Counted from the stretch's first letter, positions 50,644 through 56,388 are shown. The stretch: 64,000 nucleotides of DNA from Natrialba swarupiae (GCF_008245225.1 NZ_VTAW01000001.1:310001-374000), one strand, 5' to 3'. Numbers and translations: made by a program. Notes: a model not told the origin generated them from the letters alone.

Positions 50644-51054
50644 TCAGACCAGTTCGCGGTAGATTCGGCCGAACGCCTGCCGGCGCAACGTCGCGACCGC
50701 CGCCTCCTCCTCGTTCTGGAAGGTCGCAGCGACGGCCTCCCCCTCGGGTCCCGCGTGCCAGACGACGTTGTCGACGTTCTCGTTGCCGATCTCGGTGACC
50801 TCGCCTTCGTACTCGTCGCGCCACTTCTCGTACGCTTCGCGGGAGCCGACGGCGACCGACAGGAGGCTCGCGAACAGCGCGTCTCGAGCCGTCTCGACGA
50901 CGTCGCCCGTGACGCGGTCGTCGTACTCCGCGCGGTCGAACGACATCGCCTTGGCGACCTCGCGAACGACCGTCTGGGCCGCGGGGCCGACCGATTCGTA
51001 CGCCTCGCGTGCCTCGGCGGACGACTCGAACTCGAAGCTCCCGACCGTGTGCAT
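50644..51054 (-). CDS. DUF5809 family protein
   Basis: A 136-residue soluble helical protein: MHTVGSFEFESSAEAREAYE, then VGPAAQTVVREVAKAM, then VWHAGPEGEAVAATFQNEEE. I recall it as DUF5809, found next to DUF5810 in halobacteria. Function unknown. It follows the DUF5810 gene on the same strand by 48 bases. Confidence 0.82.
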   Translation of the reverse strand: MHTVGSFEFESSAEAREAYESVGPAAQTVVREVAKAMSFDRAEYDDRVTGDVVETARDALFASLLSVAVGSREAYEKWRDEYEGEVTEIGNENVDNVVWHAGPEGEAVAATFQNEEEAAVATLRRQAFGRIYRELV

Positions 51055-51102: not shown

Positions 51103-51555
51103 TTACGCGGACCCGTCCGCGTCGTCGGATGACTGGTCGCGGTCACCCGACTCGCCGGCGTCGCTCCCGCCCCCGCCGTGTTCGTCGGCGTCTCCGCCCA
51201 CCTCCATTCGCCGGGTCAGTTCACGGGCCTCCTCGAGGACGCCCGCCGCCTCCTCCGTCAGCTCGCCGCGTCCTGACCGGCGACTCTGTTCTGCGAGTCC
51301 GGCCTCGAATCCCGGCGGACGACCCGGCTCGGTGTCGTGGCTCGCGCCCTCGAACGCCGGCGTCTCGATCTCCGGGGCGTGTTCGGCGACGATCTCGCCG
51401 AGTTCCGTCGGCGAGCAGTCGCTCCACTCGGGGGCGTGCTCCTCGAGCCACTCGAGGTGGTCCCGACGGCCGAGCGAAGCGGTGACCGCGAGGTGGTTCG
51501 CGAGGTGTTCGGCGTCGGCCTGTTCGACGTCACAGACCGGACAGGCGTATCCCAT
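51103..51555 (-). CDS. DUF5810 zinc-finger protein
   Basis: A 150-residue protein. The N-terminus MGYACPVCDVEQADAEHLAN (CPVC plus later His in HLANH) forms a C2H2-like finger, followed by DHLEWLEEHAPEWSDCSP. The tail is acidic and low-complexity. It matches DUF5810 as I remember it; probably a nucleic-acid or protein-binding partner of the DUF5809 protein. The ATG at 51555 is chosen because the finger starts there. Confidence 0.82.
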   Translation of the reverse strand: MGYACPVCDVEQADAEHLANHLAVTASLGRRDHLEWLEEHAPEWSDCSPTELGEIVAEHAPEIETPAFEGASHDTEPGRPPGFEAGLAEQSRRSGRGELTEEAAGVLEEARELTRRMEVGGDADEHGGGGSDAGESGDRDQSSDDADGSA

Positions 51556-51772
51556 ACGGAACCCGTGACCGCGGACGGGTAAAACGTCCACGCACCACGG
51601 GACGAGAGGTCGGATCCCTGCCCCCGAACCTGGTGTTAAATATAGTACATTTCCCCATCCAGAGCGAGGCCGAACCGTCCACACGACCCCGTCAGTCGCC
51701 TGCTTATTTTATATCTAGTGAATATCCCGTGAGAACGAACATCATGATTTATTGAATTATATAACACCAATA

Positions 51773-51778
51773 CTTATG
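51773..51778 (+). promoter_or_regulatory. TATA-like box of the secreted nuclease gene
   Basis: CTTATG is centred 28 bases before the ATG at 51803. The 60 bases upstream are unusually AT-rich for this chromosome, with ATTATATAAC at 51757-51766. Confidence 0.5.
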
Positions 51779-51802
51779 TGATGGGAAAGAACAGGGGACA
51801 TC

Positions 51803-54800
51803 ATGGGCACGCACGACACGATCGGTGATAACCGACTCGGGCGACGTTCGTTCGTCTCGTTGCTCGGGGCGACGGCAGGAGCGTTCGCGCTGTCGGGATC
51901 GACGGGCGCGACGGCCGGTGAATCGACCGCGAGCGACGGCCTCGAGGCGCTGTCGTTTTACTCGACGGCGTCGCAGGTGAGCGCCGACTACGGGCCGCTG
52001 GCGGACGACGACCACGTCGTCGCGTGGGCCTCCGAGGAGGCGTCCGTAATGATCGCTGACGAAGAGGGAACCGACGAGGACGACGTCGTCTTCTACGAGG
52101 ACGAGCGCATTCCGCTGATCAGCCAGGACGGCAACGTGATTGGGATCGGCAGCGCCGGCTTCCTGAGCGACGAACGCGGCGGCTTCCACTTCGGCAACGA
52201 GCAGTTCGTCCTCAACGCCTGGGACGAGCTGATGGGACCCAACAGCACGGTCCTGTGGGACGAGAGCCACCAGCAGTACTGGGACCTCGAGAGCCACGGG
52301 ACGTTTCGCCGCTACGCGGAAGACCACGGCTACGACCTCCAGGCACTCGAGGAGTTCGACGCCGACGGGACCGTCCTCGAGTTCTACTCGACGGCGAGTC
52401 AGATCTCAGCCGACGGTGACGCGCTCACCGAAGACGACCTCGCGGGCGACGACGACCGCTCGGTGCTGGCGTGGGCCGAGGCGACGGCGACGAACGTCGA
52501 CGGAACCGACGAGGGCGCGTACATCTACGGCGACGACGAGCGAATCCCGCTGATCACGCGGGACGGCAACGTCGTCGGCTTCGGCGCGCCGTTCGCCGAG
52601 GACGAGAGCGACCGGGACGATAACAGGGAGTTCGTTCTCAACGTCTGGGACGACGTGGTCGACGGCGAGACGGTCTACTGGGACGAGAGTCACGGCCAGT
52701 ACTACGACGCTTCGCAGTTCGAAGGCCTCGTCTCGGACGCCGAGGCGGCAGGCTACACCGTCGAACCGACCGACGATCTGCTCGCGGTTCTCGGTGGGGG
52801 TTCGGACGATGACGAGACCGGCGACGCCGACGACTCGAGCAGTGACGGCGACGCCGATGACTCGAGCGACGGTGACGGAGTCACGGACGCCGACGCAGTG
52901 GTCATCACCACCCCCGCGGAGGCGTTCACGGACGCGGAACTCACGGCGCTCGCGGCGTTCGTCGACGATGGCGGGGCCGTTTTCCTCCACGACCAGTCGG
53001 ACTTCGGCGGCCACGACGAGACCGACAACCTAAACGAGATCGCCGACGCGCTCGAGTTGGGCTTTCGGTTCAACGCGGACCAGGTCGAAGACGACGCGAC
53101 TGGCTGGGCTGAGTTCGTGTTCACGACGACCGACTTCGCCGAGGAGTACCTCGAGGGAGACGTCTCGGTCGGACTCGACGACGCGGACGGGCTCGTCGTC
53201 ACCACGCCCGAGTGGGAGTTCTGGGACGACGAACTCGAGGCGCTCGAGTCGTTCGTCGACGACGGGGGGAGCGTCTTCCTGTTCGACCAGTCGGATTTCG
53301 GCGGGAACGACCAAACGGAGAATTTGAACGAGATCGCCGACCATCTGGATCTCGCCTTCCGGTTCAACGGCGGCCAGGTCGAAGACGAGGTCTACAACGC
53401 CGGACCGGAGTACGAGCCGCTGTCGACGGAGTTCTCGCCGGCGTTCGACTACTTCGCCGACAGAGACGGCGTCGCCATCGAGTTCGAGCGCGGCGAGGAG
53501 TACTACGGACGGGTCGTCCGCGTCTTCGACGGCGACACGTTCGAAGTCGAGTTCGACACCGAGTACGGCTACCGCGACGTCGTCCGTCACATTGGGATGG
53601 ACACCGCCGAGACGCCGCCCGCCGAGAACGAACCCGAAGAGTGGTTCGGCATCCCCGACGACGCGGACGAACACCTCTACGAGTGGGGCGAAAACGCCAC
53701 CGAGTTCTCGCTCGAACTCATGGCACCCGAGGACGCAGAGGCCGGCGACACCGACATCGAAGGACGTCACGTCAAGATGACGTTCGACGAGAACGAGCCG
53801 CTTCGGGGCAACTACGGTCGATTGCTCACTCATATGTACTACGATCCCGACGAGTTTGCGGCCGACTTCGCGACCGACTCGTTCTCGCGAAACTACAACC
53901 GCGAGACGATCGAGGAAGGCTACGCCCGCGTCTACTCCTCCGGTTTCTCGAACCACGACGAGTGGTCTGCTCTCGAGGAAGACGCCCTCGCCGAGGGACG
54001 TGGCATCTGGTCGGCGGCGGACTTCGACGCGCTCGAGGCGATCCGCAACGACCCAGTCGAGGAGCTGTTCGTTCCGTCGGCACGGAGCATCCGGAGCGCC
54101 GACGGTTGGGGCGGGAGCCCGCTCTCGGACGACCGGGTGGCGGTTTCCGCCTCCTCGAGCGCCGACCAGGAACTCGAAGACGGTGGCGTCGCCTACGACG
54201 ACGAGATTCCGCTGGTCGGCGTCGACGAGGACGAACGCGTCGCACTCGTCGGGGGGTTGATGATCCACGAAGAGTACGAAGAAGGCGAAGAGTTCGACGT
54301 CGACACGAGCGGTTACGGCAACTTCCCGTTCCTCTCGAATCTCCTCGATCACCTCTCGGAGACCGACGGCGACGTCCTCGTCGCTGGCGGACAGGGACAG
54401 TTCAACGCCGATGGCTCGCTCTCGCTCGAGCGCTGTCAGTACTACCTCCGCTATCTCGAGGGAGTGGGCCTTCGCCTCCGCCAGATCAACGACCTGCCGG
54501 AGACGCTCCCGGCCGAAGCGGAGACGCCACGGGCCGTCCTGGTTACGGCACCGGCTCGAGAGCTCGAGTTCGACGAGATCCTCGCGCTTCGGGAGTTCCG
54601 AAACGACGGCGGCGCCGTCGTCATGCTCGGCAGTGCCGAGGCGTCGGCCGATCACACGGAGAACCTGAACGATCTCGCGGACGCGCTGAACACGGACCTC
54701 CGATTCAACGCGGACGCGGTCGTCGACGAGGAACACAACCTCGCGGACGACCCGACCGTACTCGAGACGACGGCCTTCGACGAGGCGTTCCCGCTGTTCG

Positions 54801-55123
54801 ATGCCTACGATCCATCGCCACACGAAGAGGACGAAGACGAGGACGAAGCGCCCGGAAACAGCGGCGACGCGCCGGGCCATCAGGGCGACTGTCCGGGCAA
54901 CAGCGGCGACGCCCCCGCCGCCGGTGACGGCTGTCCCGGAAACAGCGGCAAGGCACCTCGAGGGAGCGGTCCCGGCGACGGCGGACCACCGGGACACGCC
55001 GGAAACGGTGGCGGGCCACCAGGGCACGCCGGTAACGGCGGCGGGCCACCGGAACACGCCGGAAACGGCGGTGGCGGACCGCCCGGACACGCTGGTAACG
55101 GCGGCGGACCGCCTGGCAACTAG
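51803..55123 (+). CDS. large Tat-secreted protein: DUF4350-like repeats, nuclease domain, GPPGH tail
   Basis: A 1106-residue protein. Twin-arginine signal (Arg14-Arg15, then a hydrophobic run to about 38). Two related modules follow (about 48-190 and 192-330: FYSTASQxSAD, ERIPLISxDGNV, WDESHxQY), then two GATase-like DUF4350 modules (about 360-435 and 460-535: ITTPAEAFTDAELTALAAFV, DDGGAVFLHDQSDFGGHDET). A staphylococcal-nuclease domain spans about 563-735 (YYGRVVRVFDGDTFEVEFD, then RHIGMDTAETPP and GNYGRLL). A third DUF4350-like region (740-1000) and a Gly/Pro/His-rich repeat tail (1010-1106) end it. Predicted to cut nucleic acid outside the cell, perhaps while bound to a surface by the other domains. 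Catalytic Arg/Glu residues appear partly retained. Confidence 0.78.
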   Translation: MGTHDTIGDNRLGRRSFVSLLGATAGAFALSGSTGATAGESTASDGLEALSFYSTASQVSADYGPLADDDHVVAWASEEASVMIADEEGTDEDDVVFYEDERIPLISQDGNVIGIGSAGFLSDERGGFHFGNEQFVLNAWDELMGPNSTVLWDESHQQYWDLESHGTFRRYAEDHGYDLQALEEFDADGTVLEFYSTASQISADGDALTEDDLAGDDDRSVLAWAEATATNVDGTDEGAYIYGDDERIPLITRDGNVVGFGAPFAEDESDRDDNREFVLNVWDDVVDGETVYWDESHGQYYDASQFEGLVSDAEAAGYTVEPTDDLLAVLGGGSDDDETGDADDSSSDGDADDSSDGDGVTDADAVVITTPAEAFTDAELTALAAFVDDGGAVFLHDQSDFGGHDETDNLNEIADALELGFRFNADQVEDDATGWAEFVFTTTDFAEEYLEGDVSVGLDDADGLVVTTPEWEFWDDELEALESFVDDGGSVFLFDQSDFGGNDQTENLNEIADHLDLAFRFNGGQVEDEVYNAGPEYEPLSTEFSPAFDYFADRDGVAIEFERGEEYYGRVVRVFDGDTFEVEFDTEYGYRDVVRHIGMDTAETPPAENEPEEWFGIPDDADEHLYEWGENATEFSLELMAPEDAEAGDTDIEGRHVKMTFDENEPLRGNYGRLLTHMYYDPDEFAADFATDSFSRNYNRETIEEGYARVYSSGFSNHDEWSALEEDALAEGRGIWSAADFDALEAIRNDPVEELFVPSARSIRSADGWGGSPLSDDRVAVSASSSADQELEDGGVAYDDEIPLVGVDEDERVALVGGLMIHEEYEEGEEFDVDTSGYGNFPFLSNLLDHLSETDGDVLVAGGQGQFNADGSLSLERCQYYLRYLEGVGLRLRQINDLPETLPAEAETPRAVLVTAPARELEFDEILALREFRNDGGAVVMLGSAEASADHTENLNDLADALNTDLRFNADAVVDEEHNLADDPTVLETTAFDEAFPLFDAYDPSPHEEDEDEDEAPGNSGDAPGHQGDCPGNSGDAPAAGDGCPGNSGKAPRGSGPGDGGPPGHAGNGGGPPGHAGNGGGPPEHAGNGGGGPPGHAGNGGGPPGN
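54850..55121 (+). repeat. Gly/Pro/His coding repeats in the nuclease tail
   Basis: The DNA encodes first PGNSGDAP-type units (three copies, about 54850-54955), then five GGPPGHAGNG-type units of 30-33 bases (about 54979-55121). The units are near-identical at the DNA level and so could expand or contract. The peptide looks like a collagen-like or elastin-like extension. Confidence 0.8.
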
Positions 55124-55206: not shown

Positions 55207-56388
55207 ATGGACGAGACGGACACCGGGACGATCGCGTACGGCGACGAAATTGCCGGCGCGGAGACGTTCGCGGAGCAGTCGCGTCGGCGAGCCGAGACCG
55301 AACGCGACGCCGTCGAGTGGGCCATCGAAGAACTCGAGTCGCAGGTATCCACACAGGGTGTCGACCTCGAGCCGTTGCTCGAGTACGCGCGCCGGAGCCG
55401 CGAGAGTCTCCCGGATCGTCACCGACGATCCTACGAGGCGATGGCCGACGCGTTCGACGTCGATTCCGACACCTACGAGGTGTACGTCTTCGCGTTCTCG
55501 GAACTCTGTGAGGAGCTGGCCGAGGGAACGGGGCGATCGGAGAAGAACCCGAAGGGATGTACGAACGCGCTGGTCTCGAGTCCGAAAGCCGATCTCGAGG
55601 TCGTCGACGGGCCGCTCGTGTGCAAGAATCGGGACGTTGCAGGACGTGGCGTCCGGCCCAAGTCGATCGTCGAACAGCCGCCGATCGACCGCTACCACGG
55701 CTTCCTGACGGTCGACACCTGCGGAACGATCTCGATTTTCAAGGGCGTCAACGACCGGGGACTCGTGGCCGCGAACACCTACATCGACAGCGAGCGCGAC
55801 GACATCGACCCCGAACACCAGCTCCGGAACGGAACCGCCATCCGGATCGTCCTCGAGGAGTGTGCCACCGTCGCCGAGGCGCGGACGGCACTCGAGTCGT
55901 ACCCGACGCGTCGGCTGATGGGCCAGACGCTGTTTCTCGCCGACGACACCGACGCCCTCCTGCTCGAGATCGATCCCGTCGCCGAGCGGATCGCGGTCGA
56001 CGACGAGTCCGTCGTGACGCGGACGAACCACTTCGTCCACTCACGCTCGACGGAAACCGAGAGTTCGACGACCCGGCGGGAGCGAGCGCTCGAGTTGCTC
56101 GAAGAGAAGGGGCGACTCGACCGGGACGATCTGTGGGAGATCGCACAGGATCACGAGAATGGACCGGGCGACGACTCGATCTGTCGCCATCCGGAACCGG
56201 AGACGGACGAACCACACGCGTTCGGCCAGCTGACGACCGCGAGCACGGCGATCTTCGAGGGCGGATCGCCGACGATCGGGGTCGCGATGGGCACCCCCTG
56301 TGAAACCGAGCGGGCGCGGTGTTCGTTCGGCGAGGAGATTCCGGCCGACCTGCGGACGGGGGCGCGGTGGCTCGAGCGGATGCACTGA
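55207..56388 (+). CDS. C45-type autoproteolytic hydrolase or acyltransferase
   Basis: A 393-residue Ntn-hydrolase of the acyl-coenzyme A:6-aminopenicillanic-acid acyltransferase (C45) type. The nucleophile is Cys118 in NPKGCTNALV, which would become the N-terminus after self-cleavage between Gly117 and Cys118. Later conserved parts are CKNRDVAGR, GLVAANTYID and TRTNHFVHS. The reaction in archaea is unknown; amide hydrolysis of acyl-peptides or polyamine conjugates is plausible. It starts 83 bases after the nuclease gene on the same strand. Confidence 0.85.
   Translation: MDETDTGTIAYGDEIAGAETFAEQSRRRAETERDAVEWAIEELESQVSTQGVDLEPLLEYARRSRESLPDRHRRSYEAMADAFDVDSDTYEVYVFAFSELCEELAEGTGRSEKNPKGCTNALVSSPKADLEVVDGPLVCKNRDVAGRGVRPKSIVEQPPIDRYHGFLTVDTCGTISIFKGVNDRGLVAANTYIDSERDDIDPEHQLRNGTAIRIVLEECATVAEARTALESYPTRRLMGQTLFLADDTDALLLEIDPVAERIAVDDESVVTRTNHFVHSRSTETESSTTRRERALELLEEKGRLDRDDLWEIAQDHENGPGDDSICRHPEPETDEPHAFGQLTTASTAIFEGGSPTIGVAMGTPCETERARCSFGEEIPADLRTGARWLERMH

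Follow-up and report, generated by a model that had tools for sequence, protein, structure and literature searches.

A Predicted Exported Nuclease of Natrialba swarupiae Whose GIFT Domains Are Probably Nested in One Another

Which modules make up the long chain encoded near the end of this Natrialba swarupiae DNA, how are they joined, and what would the product do outside the cell? Within the window, by which we mean the whole 64-kb stretch analysed, translation gives a single ORF at 51803–55123 on the plus strand, coding for 1106 amino acids. This ORF is real. The protein has a haloarchaeal composition (24% D+E, 4% K+R), and 12 orthologs with the same layout match it end-to-end over their full length at 67–72% identity, from which we conclude that the gene is under long-term selection. 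It is single copy in the 4.2 Mb genome, which is 100% complete. An earlier note, made from the sequence, had recognized a Tat signal, an SNase domain and three DUF4350-like segments. The parts list very nearly stands, both in the sequence and in a Pfam search, which returned PF00565 (SNase) and three DUF4350/ABC_transp_aux/IFT52_GIFT stretches, all above cut-off. The parsing does not, since the segments are halves of GIFT domains, two of which appear to be nested and not serial; that reading missed the nesting, which is the main point here.

Parts of the encoded chain

The order along the chain is A1-A2-B1-B2-SNase-A3-B3-tail, where A and B are half-domains defined by HMMs built from the protein's own repeats. 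The features are as follows.

51769..51779, +, TATA-like AT-rich site AATACTTATGT, centred ~29 nt 5' of the ATG (read from the sequence)
51803..51922, +, predicted Tat signal peptide, residues 1–40, with RR at 14–15 (sequence)
51950..52357, +, GIFT half A1, aa 50–185, predicted front of the outer GIFT domain (module HMM; AB profile 2–136 of 234)
52376..52780, +, GIFT half A2, aa 192–326, predicted front of the inner GIFT domain, with WDESHGQYYD (module HMM, AB profile)
52781..52879, +, Asp/Ser/Gly-rich linker between A2 and B1, aa 327–359 (sequence, layouts of relatives)
52880..53152, +, GIFT half B1, aa 360–450, predicted rear of the inner GIFT domain (Pfam, module HMM, AB profile, AlphaFold)
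53174..53458, +, GIFT half B2, aa 458–552, predicted rear of the outer GIFT domain and partner of A1 (AB profile 132–234 only; outer pairing from relatives)
53495..54022, +, SNase domain, aa 565–740 (PF00565 above cut-off; EcnA model; family profile against SNase structures)
54065..54496, +, GIFT half A3, aa 755–898, predicted front of the C-terminal, diverged GIFT domain (module HMM, AB profile)
54518..54802, +, GIFT half B3, aa 906–1000, predicted rear of the C-terminal GIFT domain (Pfam, module HMM, AB profile)
54803..55120, +, disordered G/P/N/H-rich tail, aa 1001–1106 (sequence; low AlphaFold confidence over 970–1106)

Judged by the promoter spacing of haloarchaea, the TATA-like site is compatible with a leaderless transcript. 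The Tat-type signal, RRSFVSLLGATAGAFALS (RRSFVSLLG), has its two arginines invariant in 13 aligned orthologs, which is in keeping with the export that had been proposed, and cleavage is likely after ATA. No cysteine or lipobox was found near the signal; the only cysteines of the protein are at 878, 1030 and 1044.

The SNase domain scores 28.5 bits against PF00565 (cut-off 21), and the profile of its family can be aligned with staphylococcal nucleases of solved structure (E-value ~2e-12). The catalytic residues are D578, R595, D600, T601, E603 and R673. Among these, D578, R595, D600, E603 and R673 correspond to Asp21, Arg35, Asp40, Glu43 and Arg87 of SNase and are invariant in the 13 aligned orthologs; 151 of the 152 relatives that could be scored, across all layouts, retain the same D/R/D/E/R set in full. 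The Arg/Glu/Arg triad whose loss would have spoken against a nuclease is, in other words, intact, and a staphylococcal nuclease of the Ca2+-dependent type appears to be the best reading of the sequence. Its best named model is EcnA (NCBIfam NF047969; E-value 2.4e-21 over aa 565–737), an equivalog with a cut-off of 180 bits against which the domain scores 76.3; it is related to EcnA, but is not one. The EcnA model spans 151 positions without accessory domains, whereas the window protein carries GIFT domains. No second SNase gene accompanies it in the complete genome.

The tail consists of an acidic run followed by PGNSG and GGPPGHAGNG repeats. It had been described as collagen-like and possibly variable in length. 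Its length does vary among orthologs; the likeness to collagen was rejected, as the repeat unit of 10 residues (30 bp, 4.3 copies) breaks the G-x-y register, and the longest G-x-y run has 5 triplets, a length that also turns up in 23% of sequences obtained by shuffling these residues. The tail sequence was not found elsewhere in this genome.

Half-domains of a GIFT fold and their pairing

Each A half ends in WDE[SG]HGQ followed by a helix and then a strand, while each B half starts with ADxVVxTxP. Together A and B form one GIFT-type domain, and in most relatives B begins 3 residues after A. The duplicated WDESHxQY modules, here A, and the DUF4350-like segments, here B, which had been listed separately, are thus complementary halves of one GIFT fold, present three times. 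The modules are there, but in three A halves and not two: A1 ends in WDESHQQY with the helix and strand, and the overlooked third (755–898) has diverged to AGGQGQF where the others have WDESHGQY. Motifs of B1 are TTPAEAF, HDQSDFGG and FRFNADQV.

AlphaFold modelling of A2-B1 with an alignment of 89 rows gave a pLDDT of 90.3 and a pTM of 0.89, for a construct that presupposes the pairing of A2 with B1. The structure prediction that had been suggested for finding the domain borders was informative for this part but not for the full length, where a shallow alignment of 13 rows gave a pLDDT of 47.8 and a Foldseek list that was mostly noise. With the A2-B1 model, the top Foldseek matches were to Pseudomonas IMPa and to the GIFT domain of IFT52 (probability 1.0), and sequence profiles agree with the latter (5fmr, E-value 5e-4; PF23355, the IFT52 GIFT family, above cut-off). 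IFT52 (PDB 5fmr, 5fms) has one intracellular copy which serves as a protein-binding module in cilia, whereas the window protein would have three exported copies, two of them nested. The B halves also pass the Pfam cut-offs of DUF4350 and ABC_transp_aux (GldG-type); those families are linked by their names to membrane ABC systems, while the window protein is a soluble exported chain. A class I glutamine amidotransferase was considered as an enzymatic alternative and rejected, there being no nucleophilic cysteine in A1, A2, B1 or B2 and no invariant cysteine in the 89-row alignment. The motifs conserved in the two halves (DExH, TxP, DQSD and FRFN) fall on predicted strand ends or immediately behind them, a placement which suggests that the A and B halves may share a pocket.

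How are the halves paired? When a 234-position profile of the single AB domain was run on the whole genome, it matched this gene as 2–136, 4–227, 132–234 and 2–231; in terms of domains, one half, a complete domain, the other half and a second complete domain. A2-B1 is the contiguous match (4–227). By homology and by this profile layout, we propose that the GIFT domain A2B1 sits within the GIFT domain A1...B2, and that the third GIFT domain follows the SNase. The linker between A2 and B1, which holds a 27-bp repeat at 52819–52877, is the site at which relatives carry an Ig-like domain, a further GIFT domain at the third and innermost level, or both.

A different history would give the same order of halves: A-A and B-B may have been tandem-duplicated separately, leaving an array of A and an array of B, or crossed pairs A1B1 and A2B2. 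Relatives were gathered from the window protein's own family, a scan of a genome collection (in which an alignment query gave matches and a single-protein query gave none), a class-wide search and 100 further genome stretches. This yielded 157 non-redundant ORFs with an SNase and GIFT halves. Among them the numbers of A and B differ in no case other than those with a split, truncated, frameshifted or deleted half, so that the halves are balanced in all intact relatives, and A-A-B or A-B-B intermediates are lacking. The innermost A-B linker of three-level proteins is also of normal length, at 3 aa (2–6) against 3 aa (1–4) in single AB domains.

A mean-field coupling model trained on unnested AB domains only was then applied to the pairing. 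It chose the nested pairing in 6–8 of nine three-level proteins in all twelve settings, with chance at 1 in 6, these proteins being related and their counts hence not independent; on a positive control of known pairing it was right in 11 of 15 cases. With the two-level proteins, including the class of the window protein, the nested pairing was chosen in 6–8 of 14, counts subject to the same relatedness, and the mean favoured nesting every time. In favour of arrays or crossed pairs, the two-level proteins do not separate the pairings in the coupling and distance-correlation tests, and by mean identity it is the innermost A3 and the outermost B3 that are most like single-domain halves. We regard separate duplication as improbable nonetheless, on account of the balance of halves, the linker, the three-level proteins and, above all, the recombinant described below.

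Relatives, nesting depth and a recombinant

The commonest layout, with S for the SNase, is AB-S-AB (71 of the 157; in 17 others of this kind the terminal A is partial or split), and 11 have S-AB. AABB-S-AB, nested twice and the class of the window protein, accounts for 14. Nine are AAABBB-S-AB; three more have a split third A, which brings the three-level total to about 12. In about 17 of 157 the GIFT domain lies inside the SNase, as AB-s[AB]s-AB (15) or AB-s[ABAB]s-AB (2). In a tree of the shared SNase-AB core, 26 nested proteins group together in a single clade (100), within which the three-level forms surround the two-level ones. This position suggests that the two-level form lost its innermost unit; the layout of the window protein was probably derived from a three-level ancestor in this way.

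The strongest evidence for nesting comes from a plasmid protein of Natronosalvus halobius (L068; WP_253438362, NZ_CP099998.1:152819-157315), whose annotation mentions nothing but a PKD domain. The tree places it with the simple proteins and not in the nested clade. In its SNase and terminal GIFT domain it shows 77–85% identity to simple relatives versus 44–54% to nested ones, while its A2, A3, B1 and B2 show the reverse, with 64–76% identity to nested proteins versus 38–51% to simple ones. The switch points lie within the outermost halves, A1 being host-like up to the DEGHGQ motif and B3 host-like from about NLNEIA on. By these identities, the protein is a natural recombinant, in which the GIFT domain of a simple AB-SNase-AB host received an inner block from a nested donor. 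Since the crossovers are inside A1 and B3, the initial A and the final B together make up the single GIFT domain of the host, a pairing which arrays or crossed pairs do not provide. The outer pairing is shown for this relative and would apply to the window protein by homology. What places these proteins among recursively inserted homologous domains is the recombinant, the support in the three-level proteins and, for the window protein, homology together with the profile layout.

We consider it likely, with some reserve, that this family evolves by recursive self-insertion: a complete Rossmann-type GIFT domain inserts into one and the same loop of a homologous GIFT domain, at depths of up to three levels, or else into a loop adjoining the active site of the nuclease, and homologous recombination swaps inner nests as cassettes. 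Growth would occur by placement of GIFT cassettes in surface loops of a GIFT domain or of the SNase, and conserved motifs would be the sites at which recombination exchanges them. The insertion site within the SNase is near the equivalent of aa 619–623 of the window protein, and the catalytic residues are kept; one or two complete GIFT domains were seen there in L039, L040, L046, L041, L106, L107, L111, L115, L124–L128 and others.

Some relatives depart from these layouts. An Ig-like segment of ~120 aa occupies the GIFT A|B junction that is used by the nested GIFT domain in L062 (aa 336–495), L067 (aa 660–814), L068 and L201, which indicates that this loop accepts unrelated domains. L019/L033, the only full-length ORF whose halves are truly broken, has an internal deletion joining mid-A2 to the end of B1. 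In Natronosalvus rutilus (L042, 7306-11821) a nested gene runs over two overlapping frames within the SNase, as a pseudogene or a sequencing error. The protein is patchy even within a genus; there was no match in three other genomes of the window's own genus (G038, G039, G040).

The nearest parallel is HABAS in the beta' subunit of cyanobacterial RNA polymerase (Si3; PMC11515920, PMC13114784), where domains of the same family are likewise inserted into one another at several levels. HABAS are small beta domains of an essential intracellular enzyme, whereas the GIFT domains are ~230-aa Rossmann domains of a secreted one; furthermore, the number of GIFT levels varies between close relatives, and a recombinant has caught the transfer. 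Nested HABAS copies may swap strands (PMC11515920, PMC13114784), and by analogy nested GIFT copies may do so as well.

Each element has been described before: SNases that act outside the cell, GIFT domains, and recursive insertion (in HABAS). What is new to us is that they occur together, that nesting depth varies among close relatives, and that there is a recombinant, and no paper on this architecture, on variable nesting depth or on the recombinant was found in the literature; the earlier impression of an unfamiliar architecture was a fair one. The deposited names of relatives follow single domains, so that a widespread but unnamed haloarchaeal family of exported nucleases, including this organism's single SNase, is scattered under 'PKD', 'lamin tail' and 'thermonuclease'. 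A domain inserted into its own homologue has seldom been described. If our reading is true, a number of levels that changes between close relatives offers a natural system for how nested domains arise, fold and get exported, and one family with unnested, two-level, three-level and catalytic-domain-inserted forms, as well as a recombinant, makes it possible to test in what order the events took place and what nesting costs in folding.

Probable role outside the cell

Probably, though short of certainty, the product is a Tat-exported SNase that cuts extracellular DNA and is placed between GIFT accessory domains, the N-terminal ones nested as A1[A2B1]B2. The intact active site together with the export signal supports an extracellular DNase. 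The chain would fold in the cytoplasm, with the A1...B2 domain carrying the second complete GIFT domain in its beta2-beta3 loop, and would then be exported in folded form by Tat. Around the active site the GIFT domains would act as non-catalytic modules, perhaps for binding, spacing or shielding of the nuclease; the insertion beside the active site in the ~17 relatives suggests substrate contact or regulation. The nucleotides released could serve as a phosphorus or carbon source, or biofilm DNA could be remodelled.

The closest functional precedent is HVO_1477, an exported haloarchaeal SNase that is required for the growth of Haloferax volcanii on external DNA (PMC3929857); a related role, in biofilms, has been discussed for Halorubrum lacusprofundi (PMC5118699). 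HVO_1477 is a lipoprotein of 327 aa with a lipobox, a lamin tail and no reported GIFT domains; the window protein has 1106 aa and three GIFT domains. It shares with HVO_1477 the export signal and the SNase, while the lipobox and lamin tail were not found, the signal having no cysteine and Pfam giving no LTD match; some GIFT-SNase relatives do end in a lamin-tail domain. Since the genome has no other SNase, an HVO_1477-like role in the use of external DNA is the most likely one. The DNA scavenging envisaged in the earlier note is accordingly plausible by analogy, and the best reading is of an extracellular DNase that either feeds on DNA in its surroundings or remodels it, along the lines suggested for HVO_1477.

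Perhaps the main role is instead the processing of DNA at the cell surface or in biofilms, with the GIFT domains and a variable C-terminal module (tail, PKD, lamin-tail, EF-hand or Ig-like) keeping the nuclease within the matrix or the S-layer. We rate this as possible, if somewhat the less probable case. The C-terminal modules of relatives, namely PKD, lamin tail and an EF-hand pair, with Ig-like segments also occurring, are typical extracellular binding modules, and HVO_1477 too has a lamin-tail domain (PMC3929857). The window protein, however, has only its disordered tail and no such module, and feeding and matrix remodelling look alike in sequence.

The other use that had been suggested, attack on competitors, fares worse. 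An exported nuclease whose repeats and modules vary between relatives might resemble a polymorphic-toxin-like effector aimed at competing archaea, with the tail as an adhesin. But the SNase is central and is not a swappable C-terminal toxin tip, and a general DNase of the extracellular space would need help to get into cells. No recognisable immunity gene was found next door, nor any delivery or toxin-repeat domain, PADLOC gave no match, and the locus is syntenic downstream within the clade (AAT-family hydrolase, GCS2 ligase). We therefore reject a polymorphic toxin or defence role and hold the weapon to be very improbable. A phage origin was likewise rejected, the one match being a weak, SNase-only one to an Archaeoglobus provirus.

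The neighbouring genes code for DUF5810, DUF5809, AAT-family hydrolase and GCS2 ligase proteins. The DUF5810 and DUF5809 genes, members of small families, are divergent, at 51103–51684 (−) and 50644–51054 (−), respectively. The hydrolase (acyl-CoA:6-APA acyltransferase-like) lies directly downstream at 55207–56388 (+) after a gap of 83 bp, and in 7 relatives such a gene is likewise found close to the family member.
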